Below, in pieces: positions 17,517 through 36,244 of a DNA stretch of 40,705 nt (position 1 is its first letter; every line of letters starts with the position of its first letter). The stretch comes from Candidatus Methylomirabilota bacterium (GTDB lineage: Bacteria > Methylomirabilota > Methylomirabilia > Rokubacteriales > CSP1-6), in assembly GCA_036001065.1 (NCBI GenBank), contig DASYUQ010000067.1:1-40705 (forward strand), in the 5' to 3' direction. The position numbers and the translations under genes are program-made. The notes below the pieces were generated by a model, which had not been told where the DNA came from, searched no databases, and saw only the letters and a program-made list of their open reading frames with translations.

Positions 17517-19867
17517 GGTTTCCTCCTCGCCTGATGGATCAGTCGGTAGAGACGGTCGGGCGAGAGCGGCAGCTCGTGCACCTCCACGCCCAGGGGGGCC
17601 AGCGCATCGGCCACGGCGTTGGCCACCGCGGCAGTCGCGCCGATCGTCCCTCCTTCGGCCATCCCCTTGAACCCGCTCACCGTCACCGCGGGCGGCGTCT
17701 CGGTGTGGACCACTTCGATGGCGGGCAGCTCCATCGTGGTCGGCAGCAGGTAGTCCATGAAGCTGGTGGTGAGCGGCTGGCCGGCATCGTCGTACACCAC
17801 GTCCTCGTAAAGCGCGGCGCCGATCCCCTGGGCCACCGCCCCGTGGATCTGCCCCTCGACGATCATGGGATTGACCATGGTGCCGCAGTCCTCGCTCACC
17901 ACGTAGCGGACGATGGCCACCTGCCCCGTCTCGGCGTCCACGTCCACGACGGCCACGTGCGTTCCGATGGAGAACGTCGCCGGCGGCGGGTCGTAGTACT
18001 GGGTCGCCTCCAGGGCGGGATCGACGCTCGCCGGCAAGGTGCCCGAGGCCGGCCGGTAGGCCAAGCGGGCCACCTCCGCCAGCGTGACCCTGCGCGCGGC
18101 CAGGCCCCGCACGAAGACCGCGCCGTCCTCCATCACGAGATCGCCGGGCGCCGCTTCCATCATGTGGGCGGCGATGGCGATGACCTTGTCGCGGACCCGG
18201 CGCGCGGCCAGGATGAGGGCGCCGCCACTCACCACCATGCTCCGGCTGCCAAACGAGCCGCTCCCGTAGGGACACCGCTCGGTATCCCCCTCCACGATCG
18301 ACACCGCCGCCATCGGGACGCCGATCTCGTCGGCCAGCACCTGGGCCAGCGTGGTGGCGTGGCCCTGGCCCTGGGAGGCCGCGCTCACGAACCCGCGCAC
18401 CTCCCCGGTGGGCTCGACGCGGACCGTCGCTGCGTCGTGACCCGCGACCTGGCTCATCCCCCGCCGCCGGAAGGTGCCCGAGCCCATGCCGGTGAACTCG
18501 GTGTAGGAGCAGAGACCGATGCCGCGATAGGTCGTCGGCGAGCTCCGCCGCCGGTCCTTCAGCAGCGCGTCGTACCCCGCCGCCTCCAGCGCGCGCTCGA
18601 GCGACTCGGTCGGGTTGCCGCTGTCGACGACCAGCCCGGAGGCGGTGGTGAACGGGACGTCGGTGGCGGCGATGAAGTTCCGGCGCCGGACCTCGGCTGG
18701 GTCGAGCCCCGTCCGGCGCGCCACCATGTCGACCAGGCGCTCCCGGACGAAGGTGCCGAGCGCCATGCCCACGCCGCGGTAGGCCCCGGCCGGACACTTG
18801 TTGGTGGCGACCGCATAGGCGTCGTAGCTGTACCCCTGGATCCGGTAGGGCCCCGGGATGATGCCCGCTGCCGTCACCGGCTCGAGCGCCGCGGTGACGG
18901 GGTACATGGAGTAGGCGCCGACATCGCAGATGAGGATGGCTCTGAATCCCAGAATGACGCCGTCGCCTGTCGCCGCCATCTCGATGTGGTTGACGTGCTC
19001 CCGGGCCTGGGCACAGGCCAGGAGGTTCTCGCGCCGGTCCTCGATCCACTTCACCGGCCGGCCCAGCCGCCGCGCGAGCAGACACACGATGATGTCCTCG
19101 GGGTAGAGATGCATCTTGGGCCCGAAGCCTCCGCCCACTGCCGGACAGATCACGCGGAGCCTCGACTCGGGCAGATCGAGCGCCTCGGCCAGACCGCTCC
19201 GCAGCAGATGGGGTGACTGGCTGGACGCCCACAGGGTGAGGATGCCCTCGGTGGCATCGAACGAGGCGAGCGCGCCCCGATTCTCCATCGGGGCCGAGGT
19301 GCAGCGAGCGTGGCGGAAGGTGTGGTTCAGCCGGAGCTCCGCCGCCGCGAACGCGCGCTCGACGGCGCCGTTGTCGAAGCGCGTGTGGAACAGGATGTTG
19401 TCCGAGAGATCGTCGTGGATCCGTTGGGCCCCGGGCCGCATGCTGAGCTCGGCATCAGTCAGCACCGGGAGCGGGTCGTACGTCACCCGCGCCTCCTCGA
19501 GCGCGTCCTCCGCCCGATAGCGATCCCGGGCGACGACCGCCACCACCGGCTCGCCGACGAAGCGCACCTTGTCCTGCGCGAGCGCGGGCCAGCCGCTCGT
19601 CTTGTAGCCGGGGCCGCTCATCTCGGCGCGGATCGGGCGGGCCAGCCGGGCGACGTCCTCACCGGTGAGAGCGGCCTCGACGCCCGGCGCCGCCAGCGCG
19701 GATCGCACGTCCACCTCGACCAGTCGAGCGTGAGCGTGCGGGCTCCGGAGAATGGCCACGCTCAGCGTCCCCGAGAGCCGCAGGTCATCCAGGTAGCGGG
19801 CCCGGCCGGTGAGGAGCTGGGGGTCCTCGCGCCGCTTCACGCGCGTGTTGACGTATCGTCGCGCCAT
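17513..19867 (-). CDS. Molybdenum hydroxylase large subunit 1 (xanthine dehydrogenase family)
   Basis: The 784-residue protein is a Mo-molybdopterin subunit of the xanthine oxidase/aldehyde oxidoreductase/CO dehydrogenase family. Its ATG at 19867 follows the second large-subunit gene after 5 bases. The a/b hammerhead domain (about 20-130) is followed by Mo-cofactor motifs VGGGFGPKM (244-252), AYRGVGM (362-368) and the catalytic Glu in GMAEGGTIG (E738). The loop at 362 is not the AYRCSFR of form I CO dehydrogenase, so it is not a true CO dehydrogenase. Such enzymes hydroxylate N-heterocycles or aldehydes using water. The Fe-S and FAD subunits needed for electron transfer are encoded at 26012-27381. 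Substrate unknown. Confidence 0.92.
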   Translation of the reverse strand: MARRYVNTRVKRREDPQLLTGRARYLDDLRLSGTLSVAILRSPHAHARLVEVDVRSALAAPGVEAALTGEDVARLARPIRAEMSGPGYKTSGWPALAQDKVRFVGEPVVAVVARDRYRAEDALEEARVTYDPLPVLTDAELSMRPGAQRIHDDLSDNILFHTRFDNGAVERAFAAAELRLNHTFRHARCTSAPMENRGALASFDATEGILTLWASSQSPHLLRSGLAEALDLPESRLRVICPAVGGGFGPKMHLYPEDIIVCLLARRLGRPVKWIEDRRENLLACAQAREHVNHIEMAATGDGVILGFRAILICDVGAYSMYPVTAALEPVTAAGIIPGPYRIQGYSYDAYAVATNKCPAGAYRGVGMALGTFVRERLVDMVARRTGLDPAEVRRRNFIAATDVPFTTASGLVVDSGNPTESLERALEAAGYDALLKDRRRSSPTTYRGIGLCSYTEFTGMGSGTFRRRGMSQVAGHDAATVRVEPTGEVRGFVSAASQGQGHATTLAQVLADEIGVPMAAVSIVEGDTERCPYGSGSFGSRSMVVSGGALILAARRVRDKVIAIAAHMMEAAPGDLVMEDGAVFVRGLAARRVTLAEVARLAYRPASGTLPASVDPALEATQYYDPPPATFSIGTHVAVVDVDAETGQVAIVRYVVSEDCGTMVNPMIVEGQIHGAVAQGIGAALYEDVVYDDAGQPLTTSFMDYLLPTTMELPAIEVVHTETPPAVTVSGFKGMAEGGTIGATAAVANAVADALAPLGVEVHELPLSPDRLYRLIHQARRKP

Positions 19868-24820: not shown

Positions 24821-25013
24821 AGTCATGTCAACGATCGTCGCGGTCGCGGGGCCGACGGGCTGGTGCGGCAGGGGTCGGCGGGACCCGTTCCCGCACGCTG
24901 GCCACGGGCCCCGCGTGCCGAGGTGGAGCCCAGCCGCAACGGGGCTGCGGACGCGTGCCGCGTGGTCCCGCGATCCCTGCCGCACCAGCCCGTCGGCCCC
25001 GCCGCCAACACTA
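24821..25013. repeat. Long palindromic repeat, family B copy 1
   Basis: The arms (about 24849-24882 and 24965-25001) pair over GGGGCCGACGGGCTGGTGCGG and its complement, with a GC-rich centre of about 80 bp. A copy with the same layout is at 35989-36244. The right edge, ACACTA, supplies the TAG stop codon of the binding-protein gene. The left edge approaches the permease start and lacks a clear CTAG, so this copy may be eroded. Both strands contain short open frames, but these are mirror images caused by the palindrome and I do not treat them as genes. Confidence 0.75.
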
Positions 25014-30350: not shown

Positions 30351-30803
30351 TCAGAATCCCCACGGGCCCGACGGCAGCTGGACGCCCAGCCACATCTTGA
30401 ACACCACGTAGGTCAGGACCGCGGTCGTGACCGATAGGGCGACCGAGACCACCCAGGGCTGCGGCTCGGCGGCCCGAAACAGGAAGGCGAGAAACAGGAA
30501 CGTCGTCGCCAGGAACCCCAGCGGCTCCAGCGCGAAGGCGTAGGCCACCCCCGCCAGCAGCGTCCCTACGGCCCTGGCCCGGTGCGCCGGTTCCAGGGTC
30601 GTCGGGGCGGTCGTCGGCCTCCCTCGCGGCGGCAGCGCCAGGAGCGCGAGGGAGACCAGACACAGAGCCACCGCCAGCCAGAAGGGGAAAAACCCAGGCC
30701 CCGGGCGGCTCGGCTCGCCGACCGTCAGCCTGGCCGCCTCGACGGCGCCGGCGAGGCCGAAGAGCAGGAGGACCGCCGCGGCCACCCGCTCCCGCGTCGG
30801 CAT
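30351..30803 (-). CDS. tctB: TctB small membrane subunit
   Basis: The 150-residue protein has four hydrophobic segments (about 8-25, 40-55, 80-110 and 118-138), the layout of TctB, which is poorly conserved in sequence. I choose ATG 30803, sharing one base with the tctC stop; GTG at 30806 would give a 4-bp overlap. It lies between tctC and tctA in the standard TctCBA gene order, which is the main support for the assignment. Confidence 0.85.
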   Translation of the reverse strand: MPTRERVAAAVLLLFGLAGAVEAARLTVGEPSRPGPGFFPFWLAVALCLVSLALLALPPRGRPTTAPTTLEPAHRARAVGTLLAGVAYAFALEPLGFLATTFLFLAFLFRAAEPQPWVVSVALSVTTAVLTYVVFKMWLGVQLPSGPWGF

Positions 30804-31783
30804 CACTTCTTGCCGATCCCCAGCCGGGCCACGACCTTCTTCACCGCCTCGTGCTCGCTCTCCACGAGCTTGCGGGTCGCCTCGGGGTCACGGTGATCCA
30901 CGAGCATCCCGGCCTTCTCGACCGCCGCGACCACGGCGGGGTCCTTCATGGTCTTGTCGAGCGCACGAGCGAGCTTGTCGACGATCTCCCGGGAGGTCTT
31001 GGCCGGGACGTAGAGGCCCATCCAGATGTTCAGCGACGCCTCGGGGAACCCCTTCTCGGCCATCGTCGGCACGTCGGGAAATGCCGGCACCCGCTTGGGC
31101 GCGGTGATGACCAGCGGCACCAGATCGCCCGACCTGATCAGCGGCGCCAGCGAGCTCAGGCCGCTGGAGGCCACGGTGACGTGTCCGCCCATGATGGCGT
31201 TCTTGACCGGTCCGGTGCCCTGGAACGGAACGTGGGTGATGTCGAGGCCGTAGGCGAGCTTGAAGAGCTCCATGGTGAAGAACGACACGGTCCCCAGGCC
31301 CGCCGAGCCGTAGCTCAGCTTGCCCGGGTTCTTCTTCGCGTACTCGACGAACTCCTCGAGCGTCTTCCAGGAGCCGCCGGCCCTGGCGGTGATGACCCCG
31401 ATATCGGACATGTAGCTGCCGACCGGGGCGAAGTCGGACGGCCGGTAGGGCAGGTCGGGCTGGATGGCGGTGATGATCGTCAGCGTCGAGTTCGTCGTCG
31501 CGTACACCGTGTAGCCGTCCAGCCTGCCCTTCGCGACATGGTCCGCGCCGAGCGCGCCGCCGCCGCCGGGCTTGTTCACGAGCACCACGGGCACGCCGAG
31601 GTTCGCCGAGAGCTGGGGCTGGACGATGCGGGCCGCGGTGTCGGCGGGACCGCCGGGCGGGAACGGGATGATGAACTCGAGGGGGCGGCTGGGGTAGTCC
31701 GACTCCGCGCCGAGCCGGCCCCCGCCGAGTGCCGTCAGCGCCAGGGTCAGCAGGGCCACGGGGACAACGGGATTTCTCCGCAT
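30803..31783 (-). CDS. tctC: TctC periplasmic binding protein (Bug family)
   Basis: The 326-residue protein starts at ATG 31783, with GGAGGAG six bases upstream. Residues 1-26 form a signal peptide (LGAES cleavage region). The mature start YPSRPLEFIIPFPPGGPADTAARIV and the motif VVLVNKPGGGGALGADHVAK are diagnostic of Bug/TctC receptors. It binds a carboxylate in the periplasm and hands it to TctAB. Its leader contains structured repeat A1, whose hairpin ends 17 bases before the start codon; a CCTCC segment of that hairpin could pair with the GGAGG ribosome site. That gives a possible translational switch (inference). Confidence 0.93.
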   Translation of the reverse strand: MRRNPVVPVALLTLALTALGGGRLGAESDYPSRPLEFIIPFPPGGPADTAARIVQPQLSANLGVPVVLVNKPGGGGALGADHVAKGRLDGYTVYATTNSTLTIITAIQPDLPYRPSDFAPVGSYMSDIGVITARAGGSWKTLEEFVEYAKKNPGKLSYGSAGLGTVSFFTMELFKLAYGLDITHVPFQGTGPVKNAIMGGHVTVASSGLSSLAPLIRSGDLVPLVITAPKRVPAFPDVPTMAEKGFPEASLNIWMGLYVPAKTSREIVDKLARALDKTMKDPAVVAAVEKAGMLVDHRDPEATRKLVESEHEAVKKVVARLGIGKK

Positions 31784-31800
31784 GGTGCTCCTCCTTTTAT

Positions 31801-31898
31801 CGGAGGGGGCGACGTCACAGGCGCGCCCACAGGGCGCGACGGCCCCCTCCGAAGCCTCCCCCAAGAGGGGATTGCGCCGGCAAAGCCGGCGCTCGAAC
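31801..31898 (-). repeat. Structured leader repeat, family A copy 1 (upstream of tctC)
   Basis: Read on the minus strand, a small hairpin (GCGCCGGC-TTT-GCCGGCGC, 31873-31891) is followed by a large one with an outer stem CGGAGGGGGC/GCCCCCTCCG (31801-31851) enclosing GGGCGCGCC/GCGCGCCC-type pairs. The copy at 35870-35967 is ungapped and differs, by my count, at 13 of 98 positions. Four of those differences form two compensated base pairs in the small hairpin. Both copies have the same orientation and sit 17-19 bases before a start codon. The 62 bases between 31899 and 31960 show nothing further. Confidence 0.75.
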
Positions 31899-31960: not shown

Positions 31961-32662
31961 TCACACCCCGAGGTAGGACACTCTCACGTGGGGATTCTGC
32001 AGGAGCGCCGCGCCCGTGTCGGCGAGGACGATCCGCCCCTGCTCCAGCACGTAGGCGCGGTGGCTGATGGGGAGCGAGAAGTGGACGTTCTGCTCGATCA
32101 GGAACACCGTGATCCCCCGCTCGTTGATCCGGTGGATGGTCTCGATGATCAGCTTGACCAGCGTCGGCTGGAGCCCGAGCGACGGCTCGTCGAGCAGGAG
32201 CAGCTCGGGGCAAGCCATGAGGGCCCGCCCGATCGCCAGCATCTGGCGCTCGCCGCCCGAGAGCGTCCGGGCGAGCTGCGGCGTCCGCTCCTCGAGCCTC
32301 GGGAACAGGGCGAAGACGTCGGCGAGGGTCTCGGCCTGCCGCGCGCGCGCCCGGGGTACCACGGCGCCGATTCTAAGGTTGTCGAGGACGGTCATTTCGG
32401 GAAACACACGCGCGCCCTCGGGGACGACCGCGATCCCCTGGCGGACGATCTCCTCCGGCGCGAGGCGGTCGATCCGGCGGCCGCGGAAGAAGATGCCGCC
32501 GCCGGATCGGACCAGCCCCACGATGGCTTTGATCAGCGTGGTTTTGCCAGCCCCGTTCGGCCCGATGAGGCTCACGACCTCGCCCTCACCGACCTCGAGC
32601 GAGACTCCCCATAACACTTGCAGCGTGCCGTAGCCCGCGTCGAGCGCCTCCAGCCTAAGCAT
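31961..32662 (-). CDS. livF: LivF-type branched-chain amino acid ABC ATPase
   Basis: The 233-residue protein starts at ATG 32662, overlapping the LivG stop by 8 bp. It has Walker A GPNGAGKTT (about 33-41), the LivF-like segment GIAVVPEGARVFPEMTVLDNL, signature TLSGGERQMLAIGRAL, Walker B LLLDEPSLGLQP, and a switch region ending in FLIEQNVHFSL. It is one of two ATPases of a HAAT-type importer, on the cytoplasmic face of the membrane. Members of this family carry branched-chain amino acids, amides, urea or aromatic acids. The sequence is fully canonical, unlike its LivG partner. It is the last gene before the repeat A1 leader of tctC. Confidence 0.95.
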   Translation of the reverse strand: MLRLEALDAGYGTLQVLWGVSLEVGEGEVVSLIGPNGAGKTTLIKAIVGLVRSGGGIFFRGRRIDRLAPEEIVRQGIAVVPEGARVFPEMTVLDNLRIGAVVPRARARQAETLADVFALFPRLEERTPQLARTLSGGERQMLAIGRALMACPELLLLDEPSLGLQPTLVKLIIETIHRINERGITVFLIEQNVHFSLPISHRAYVLEQGRIVLADTGAALLQNPHVRVSYLGV

Positions 32663-35214: not shown

Positions 35215-35850
35215 CTACTCGAAGATCTCCACCTTGACGGGCGTGCAGTGGTACGCGTTGCACGGGGCCAGTACGTCGAGCGGACAGTTGGAGAACCCCA
35301 CCAGGCAGTCCCTCTCCGCGCGAAACTCGATGTAGTCTCCGGGCTTCGACACCGGCTCGCCGATGACCCAGCGTCCCCGCGCGCAGTCGTGGTGGTAGTT
35401 CATGAACAGATCCATCGTGTCCGGGATGTCCTCGGGCAGGATCCCGTACGGCGCCACCGCGTTCGCGATGTTCTCGTGGCAGCCGTCGCGCGGACCGAGC
35501 CCGTACGATTCGTAGAGGAACCGGTTGCACATGCGGTTGTGCGTGTCGTGGACACCCTTGGGCTCCGGCGTCTCCTTGACGATCGTCATCAGGGGCCGGC
35601 AGATCGTCGACATGAGGGTGTCGCCTTCCGTCAGCTTGTCGCGCGGCACGTACTCGGCGCCCGGCGGGGGGACGTACCTCGTGCGGGAGTACGAGGTCGA
35701 CAGCTTCTCGCGGGGGTTGTTGGCGTTGAACACCGCCATGTCGACGACCTGCTGGCCCTCGAGGTCCGTCACTCGCAGGTGCTGGCCCCGGCGCACCGTC
35801 ACCGCGAGCCCGCGCTTGGGCGGAATCACCTGCTCGAACACGACCCGCAT
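35215..35850 (-). CDS. DUF1989/urea carboxylase-associated family protein
   Basis: The 211-residue protein matches the DUF1989 family, named for its association with urea carboxylase and urea amidolyase genes. Signatures are GQQVVDMAVFNANNPREKLSTS, the Cys/His-containing DGCHENIANAVAPYGI, and a late CPLDVLAPCNAY. The conserved Cys and His residues suggest a metal site. Proteins of this family act in degradation of urea-like or guanidine-derived compounds (carboxyguanidine deiminase activity is known for relatives); whether that holds here is uncertain. It starts at ATG 35850 with GGGAG upstream, behind repeat A2, and precedes livH by eight bases, so it may process what this importer brings in. 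Confidence 0.85.
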   Translation of the reverse strand: MRVVFEQVIPPKRGLAVTVRRGQHLRVTDLEGQQVVDMAVFNANNPREKLSTSYSRTRYVPPPGAEYVPRDKLTEGDTLMSTICRPLMTIVKETPEPKGVHDTHNRMCNRFLYESYGLGPRDGCHENIANAVAPYGILPEDIPDTMDLFMNYHHDCARGRWVIGEPVSKPGDYIEFRAERDCLVGFSNCPLDVLAPCNAYHCTPVKVEIFE

Positions 35851-35869
35851 GCCGCGCTCCCTAGTTCGT

Positions 35870-35967
35870 CGGCGGGGGCGATTCCACAGGCGCGCCCACA
35901 GGGCGCGACGGCCCCCTCCGAAACCTCCCCCAGGATTCGATTACGGCGGCAAAGCCGCCGTTCGAAC
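35870..35967 (-). repeat. Structured leader repeat, family A copy 2 (upstream of DUF1989 gene)
   Basis: Aligns without gaps to 31801-31898. The small hairpin reads ACGGCGGC-AAA-GCCGCCGT on the plus strand; compared with copy 1, a G-C pair has become A-T and a C-G pair has become G-C, so pairing is preserved. The outer stem has one C-T mismatch. The copy ends 19 bases before the DUF1989 ATG. With repeat B2 it fills the 390-base gap between the DUF1989 gene and the binding-protein gene; the 21 bases between the two repeats show nothing. Confidence 0.75.
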
Positions 35968-35988: not shown

Positions 35989-36244
35989 CTAGTGTCCCGT
36001 CCTCGAAGTCATGTGAAGCACCGGCCAGCGCGCGGCCCCGGGGCCGACGGGCGCGCACGGCAGGGGTCCGCGGGACCCGTTCCCGCCCCCCCGGCAACGG
36101 ACCCCGCGTGCCCAGGTGGAGCCCAGCCGCAACCGGGCAGCGGACGCGTGCCTCGTGGTCCCGCGATCCCTGCCGCGCACGCCCGTCGGCCCCGCCGGCG
36201 CGAGCGCGGCGATCGTGAACATGACCTCCCAGACGGAACACTAG
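35989..36244. mobile_element. Palindromic MITE-like repeat, family B copy 2, in CTAG target
   Basis: CTAGTGTCCCGTC at 35989-36001 is matched in inverted orientation by 36232-36244 with one mismatch, and imperfect pairing continues through TCATGT. Inner arms (about 36029-36076 and 36158-36200) pair almost completely around GGGGCCGACGGGC. Both ends are CTAG with TA internal, the target known for IS630-type elements, and both begin GTG after the TA like the MITE at 1261-1350. The right end forms the TAG stop of the binding-protein gene. It has no transposase. A related copy lies at 24821-25013. Confidence 0.75.

Follow-up and report, generated by a model that had tools for sequence, protein, structure and literature searches.

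The two-hairpin leader of tctC is very probably a copy of a mobile palindromic repeat dispersed in Candidatus Rokubacteria

The two-hairpin leader located upstream of tctC in the window (the whole stretch of 40,705 nucleotides that was analyzed here) is one copy of a dispersed repeat of about 97 nt, and we consider it very probable that this repeat is a non-autonomous, mobile and palindromic element of Candidatus Rokubacteria, which are uncultured bacteria frequently found in soil and groundwater. The genome from which the window comes measures 4.46 Mb; it holds 81 exact occurrences of the core GGGGGAGGYYTCGGAGGGGGCC plus at least 19 that differ from it by one mismatch, and the repeat has at least 100 copies in this genome. 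The sequence patterns used to detect copies favor well-kept ones, and the copies were read from retrieved genome stretches; the genomes used are draft assemblies, and many copies are related to one another. The range of the repeat was examined among 39 relatives of the same class. Core matches were present in all 26 relatives belonging to the same order, and in 0 of the 13 relatives elsewhere in the class. When the GTDB collection was scanned, all 80 of 80 loci among the matches listed were assigned to Candidatus Rokubacteria or Rokuibacteriota, and the phage and plasmid sequences searched gave no match to the element. No Rfam family matched it above the gathering score, and no published description of the family was found for Rokubacteria combined with palindromic repeats.

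The window contains two copies of the repeat that are 83% alike over 112 nt (Table 1). An initial annotation had described a leader with two hairpins before tctC and a second copy at a similar distance from the start of a DUF1989 gene, and both points were borne out: the two copies end 16-18 nt upstream of the tctC and DUF1989 gene starts, and the folding of copy 1 is stronger than that of its shuffled versions (z = -4.3, with 0/200 shuffles as strong). The general layout of the core is TCGAGCGCCGGC-TTY-GCCGGCGC…GGGGGAGG-YYT-CGGAGGGGGC-loop-GCCCCCTCCGA. The loop of the large hairpin exists in short, mid and long forms, which swap at orthologous sites, and the left parts of the copies are variable and modular while the right end is fixed. 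A mini-hairpin seen in the window copy, CCCCTC-TTG-GGGGGA, was not conserved among the other copies. Tandem or nested copies, together with a sister sub-family (TGGGGAGGYATCGGAGGGGGCG..; CGGAAGGGGGGCGAAGCCCCCCTCCGA), were observed beside the main one (L123 5131-5303, L086, L067 and L094). Two other dispersed sequences are also present in the window. The first is a longer palindrome found at 24838-25006 and 35989-36244 (88% alike over 167 nt) and at other G000 and G001 loci, its second copy in the window lying right against the CTAG on the left side of repeat copy 2. The second is a separate 90-nt MITE at 1261-1350, CTAGTGCCGTTCCAAC...GTTGGAACGGCACTAG, which is identical at many loci of the genome and shows CTAG target duplications in filled and empty pairs with G001, as in a recent burst.

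Table 1. Coordinates of the two repeat copies, their parts and the neighboring genes in the window
Feature	Position	Strand	Remark
Repeat copy 1 core (long-loop form)	31800..31896	(-)	97 nt, between livF-like stop (31961) and tctC start (31783)
Hairpin H1, GCGCCGGC-TTT-GCCGGCGC	31874..31892	(-)	stem holds both covarying pairs
Conserved GGGGGAGG	31855..31862	(-)	end of linker, just 5' of large hairpin
Large hairpin, CGGAGGGGGC-[31-nt loop with inner stem]-GCCCCCTCCG	31801..31851	(-)	
tctC Shine-Dalgarno GGAGGAG	31788..31794	(-)	kept in G001, where this junction lacks the element; predicted mostly unpaired
tctC (PF03401)	30803..31783	(-)	downstream of copy 1
ABC transporter ATPase, LivF-like (PF00005)	31961..32662	(-)	upstream of copy 1
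Repeat copy 2 core (long loop, stem variant ACGGCGGC/GCCGCCGT)	35869..35965	(-)	upstream of DUF1989 gene
CTAG, right side of copy 2	35861..35864	(-)	candidate target duplication
CTAG, left side of copy 2	35989..35992	(-)	before module-ii left part GAGCGCGTCCGAGTAGCCTCCG
DUF1989 gene (PF09347)	35215..35850	(-)	downstream of copy 2

We looked for traces of insertion in the sequences flanking the copies. The copies are flanked by direct repeats that vary in length (7-45 nt), the right-hand one beginning 3-4 nt past the right end of the element. Those of at least 8 nt at an offset of 2-6 were found for 27 copies when 3.1 were expected, and those of at least 12 nt for 12 copies when 0.2 were expected, the longest reaching 34-45 nt. 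A smaller excess was seen at the control offsets, which are contaminated by long duplications extending that far. Filled and empty states of a same site were also observed. At one site that is filled in G001 and empty in G000, the element stands directly before an ATG with ATGAGCCG on both sides, and the original upstream sequence has been shifted away by about 145 nt. At another, L051 is filled and carries a 41-nt duplicate, of which G001 has a single copy. The tctC junction itself is empty in G006 and G043, where the livF stop is followed by 25 or about 12 nt and then by the ATG; in G001, which belongs to the same genus, other DNA lies upstream of tctC, yet the Shine-Dalgarno (SD) sequence GGAGGAGCACC is retained. 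For copy 1 of the window, no target duplication was visible, and the 63 nt on its left match no other copy. The G001 regions compared were those picked for holding the element, and the fraction of shared sites is therefore not an estimate of turnover. Altogether, the dispersed copies, the target duplications and the filled and empty sites support the mobile hairpin that the initial annotation had proposed as an alternative to a structured RNA.

To describe the position of the repeat relative to genes, about 250-295 copies, drawn from the own genome, from G001 and from other genomes, were annotated with genes called by a home-made, simple codon-based caller trained on the retrieved DNA rather than taken from a curated annotation. 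Among 252 copies, 98 were found between tandem genes in the sense orientation, 86 between tandem genes in the antisense orientation, 66 at convergent junctions and only 2 at divergent ones, where promoters lie, as compared with 8.4% of divergent junctions among those that are element-free (p = 1.5e-7). The right edge was located at most 6 nt from an opposite-strand stop codon for 109 of 153 copies (71%) versus 10.4% of the allowed intergenic positions (p about 4e-71), although these gene-context p-values overstate certainty because the copies are not all independent. It was located at most 6 nt from a start codon for 33 of 100 copies, with 9.2% expected, and the most frequent distance to the ATG among the start-adjacent copies is exactly 3 nt. 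The left edge showed no comparable anchoring to gene ends. The same pattern was obtained when the own genome, G001 and the other genomes were taken separately. Stop codons adjoining the element were TAG in 42 cases, TAA in 24 and TGA in 21, versus 971 TGA, 493 TAG and 161 TAA in the genomes, and CTAG is frequent. As for the left parts, module i is enriched before starts (9/17, p = 0.0003), an association that we only note because many of these copies are related. The family thus sits at gene ends in both orientations and does not, as initially supposed, lie before starts as a rule; of the opposite picture, copies scattered in both orientations, the two orientations are found and the scattering is not, as the copies are tied to gene ends.

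Such a position right behind stop codons, together with the strong GC hairpin and the near absence from divergent junctions, could also be that of a bidirectional transcription terminator or of an mRNA 3'-end stabilizer, spread and retained for its effect behind stops. We find this function quite improbable: more than one third of the copies lie in the sense orientation between tandem genes, some of them directly before an ATG, and orthologous junctions may be without the element. Moreover, the element is not a canonical intrinsic terminator, since its base profile shows no T-run after the right hairpin.

The copies placed directly before an ATG raise another possible function, that of a portable ribosome site, in which GGGGGAGG would act as an SD across the hairpin and restart the translation of a gene whose upstream region was displaced. 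The layout in these copies is GGGGGAGG-3 nt-[hairpin]-A-3 nt-ATG, so that bridging the hairpin would leave 7 nt between the SD and the start. In agreement with this, 28 copies are located 0-6 nt before a start, too close for a second SD to fit in, and the most frequent GGAGG-to-start spacing once the hairpin is collapsed is 7 nt (14/38). Of the 19 copies more than 15 nt from a start, 12 have an SD of their own, and at the filled G001 site described above the native upstream sequence has been displaced. There is a precedent in the T4 genes 38 and 25, in which a hairpin reduces the distance between SD and AUG to 5 nt for gene 38 and to 11 nt for gene 25 (PMC3014915), as compared with 7 nt here for copies 3 nt before the ATG. 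The resemblance is only geometric, however. GGGGGAGG is exact in 88% of the start-adjacent copies and equally in 88% of the stop-adjacent ones, so that its conservation is not tied to starts; stricter conservation was looked for in the start-adjacent copies and was not found. In addition, the predicted folds leave GGGGGAGG only partly open, target preference alone could yield the 3-nt offset, and the same test finds an SD in only 47% of all called genes. Nor can this function apply to the two window copies, both of which have an SD after the hairpin. Altogether, we regard a portable ribosome site as unlikely.

The initial annotation had proposed a structured leader RNA controlling tctC and the DUF1989 gene, in which CCTCC, at the hairpin edge, could pair either with its own G-run or with the GGAGG of the ribosome site. 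The two motifs are indeed located where they had been placed and are complementary in the tctC leader, and the two compensated base pairs reported in the small hairpin are genuine and hold over 215 copies. Nevertheless, neither folding nor the element-free tctC orthologues lend support to such a switch, which we consider highly improbable. According to the predicted fold of this leader, the probability that the CCTCC arm pairs is 1.0 for its own G-run and 0.0003 for the ribosome site, the SD is mostly free, and forcing the switch fold costs 5.7 kcal/mol. Relatives have tctC without the element upstream, copies stand beside unrelated genes in both orientations, and there is no Rfam match. Because in many start-adjacent copies the stretch behind the hairpin is too short to hold an SD, the switch cannot be a general property of the family. 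A riboswitch or another cis-regulatory leader RNA was likewise rejected, the copies being neither linked to a conserved single gene class nor only in the sense orientation.

The compensatory changes count in favor of a structured leader RNA, but they are accounted for by an exchange of stem versions at orthologous sites. Over the 215 copies, pair 5 of H1 is C-G in 156 and G-C in 54, pair 4 is C-G in 200 and G-C in 10, and 98.4% of the cells pair versus 92.1% after shuffling. For 38 diverse copies, the covariation score was above all 500 shuffles and all slid versions. When orthologous sites of G000 and G001 were compared by hand count, the whole stem version was replaced at about three of them (counted from alignments), and the loop class (short, mid or long) differed at about 10 of 18. 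At one orthologous site, the long loop was inverted inside fixed arms; an inverted large-hairpin loop between fixed arms was seen in L053 compared with L113 (about 17990-18087), and also in L095. Such an inverted loop points to recombination or template switching at the palindrome. The simplest reading is that the compensatory pairs arise from stem versions overwriting each other between copies. On this reading, the compensations show that a hairpin is kept and are no proof of selection on an RNA. An asymmetry of wobble pairs between the arms was dropped as a sign of RNA selection because the 3' arm is more variable whatever the type of change, and because a sub-family dominates one position.

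A mobilizing enzyme was searched for. No transposase or reverse transcriptase linked to the copies was found, and most relatives lack both a Y1 transposase and a reverse transcriptase. A RAYT was rejected as the mover: the genome has a single Y1 gene, which encodes an IS200/IS605-type TnpA, lies next to a TnpB-like gene and is accompanied by no copy of the repeat (L101, G000:C22). Y1 genes of any type occur in 11 of 56 genomes, with no core copy at the loci checked. A reverse transcriptase was rejected as well, the RVT_1 of the own genome being a partial group II type enzyme with no repeat beside it; RVT_1 of any type occurs in 19 of 56 genomes. A truncated group II intron reverse transcriptase gene was observed beside an IS3-like transposase pair at L286 (G000:C186), and the apparent core matches beside an intron reverse transcriptase at L296 and L298 were put down to chance similarity. 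Finally, capture through Ku and NHEJ was considered and set aside. Within the order, Ku (PF02735) was found in 15 of 18 genomes, and among others of the class in 0 of 6, but this is one split on the tree and says nothing about the mechanism.

For the mobile repeat that we favor, the insertion of new copies would proceed through nicking or a staggered cut, with a preference for AT- or CTAG-like targets, which in a GC-rich genome would land on stop and start codons. Both neighboring genes would stay whole because the target is duplicated at insertion, and the copies would later be overwritten by gene conversion. The tctC leader would then be a passive insertion upstream of the own ribosome site of tctC, where the element may perhaps stabilize or end the upstream transcript. 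An ordinary DDE transposase does not account for duplications that vary in length. A more elaborate version, of low probability in our view, is an element that accommodates itself by inserting at tight stop/start junctions, duplicating the junction and supplying a ribosome site across its hairpin before the ATG, so that the downstream gene stays translated. If this were true, the variable duplications and the one fixed end would need a nick-primed mechanism of a new kind.

We compared the repeat with known families of bacterial repeats. By the usual definition, a MITE carries terminal inverted repeats and makes target duplications of fixed length. Here, only TCGGAG is common to the two ends of module-ii copies, and the duplications range over 7-45 nt. 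The repeat resembles MITEs such as Correia/NEMIS, ERIC and RUP in being non-autonomous, shorter than 200 nt, flanked by target duplications and possibly active on neighboring transcripts, and differs from them by its GC-richness, the variable length of its duplications and the lack of clear terminal inverted repeats (PMC2229807). Like REP/BIME sequences, it is a short extragenic palindrome with about 100 or more copies per genome, mostly behind genes. REPs, however, mostly carry a GTAG-type start, and IS200/IS605-type movement makes no larger target duplication (PMC2817692), whereas the Rokubacteria repeat has no linked RAYT, no GTAG-type start and duplications of up to 45 nt. The best reading is that its behavior is closest to that of YPAL (RU-2) of Yersinia, an intergenic palindromic repeat of 100-200 nt with internal inverted repeats that is not AT-rich, has no TA ends and shows filled and empty sites with variable target duplications of 3-26 bp (PMC2229807). 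An intergenic position, variable-length target duplications at insertion, internal palindromes, a base composition that is not AT-rich, ends without TA, and filled and empty sites are found here too, a likeness of behavior between different phyla. The Rokubacteria repeat differs in its right end pinned to stop and start codons, its duplications of up to 45 nt, its modular left parts and its loop swaps. As there is no linked RAYT and the definition of a MITE does not apply, membership in a named family is not claimed; by analogy, the repeat appears to work like YPAL, and its family is best read as new.

These results have consequences for the study of Rokubacteria. The repeat fills many operon junctions and thereby affects gene annotation in this group, and exchange between its copies mimics covariation, which may mislead comparative searches for structured RNAs. 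The combination of a fixed end, variable duplications and an anchoring at the level of codons is unusual for a bacterial repeat and points to a possibly new insertion mechanism.
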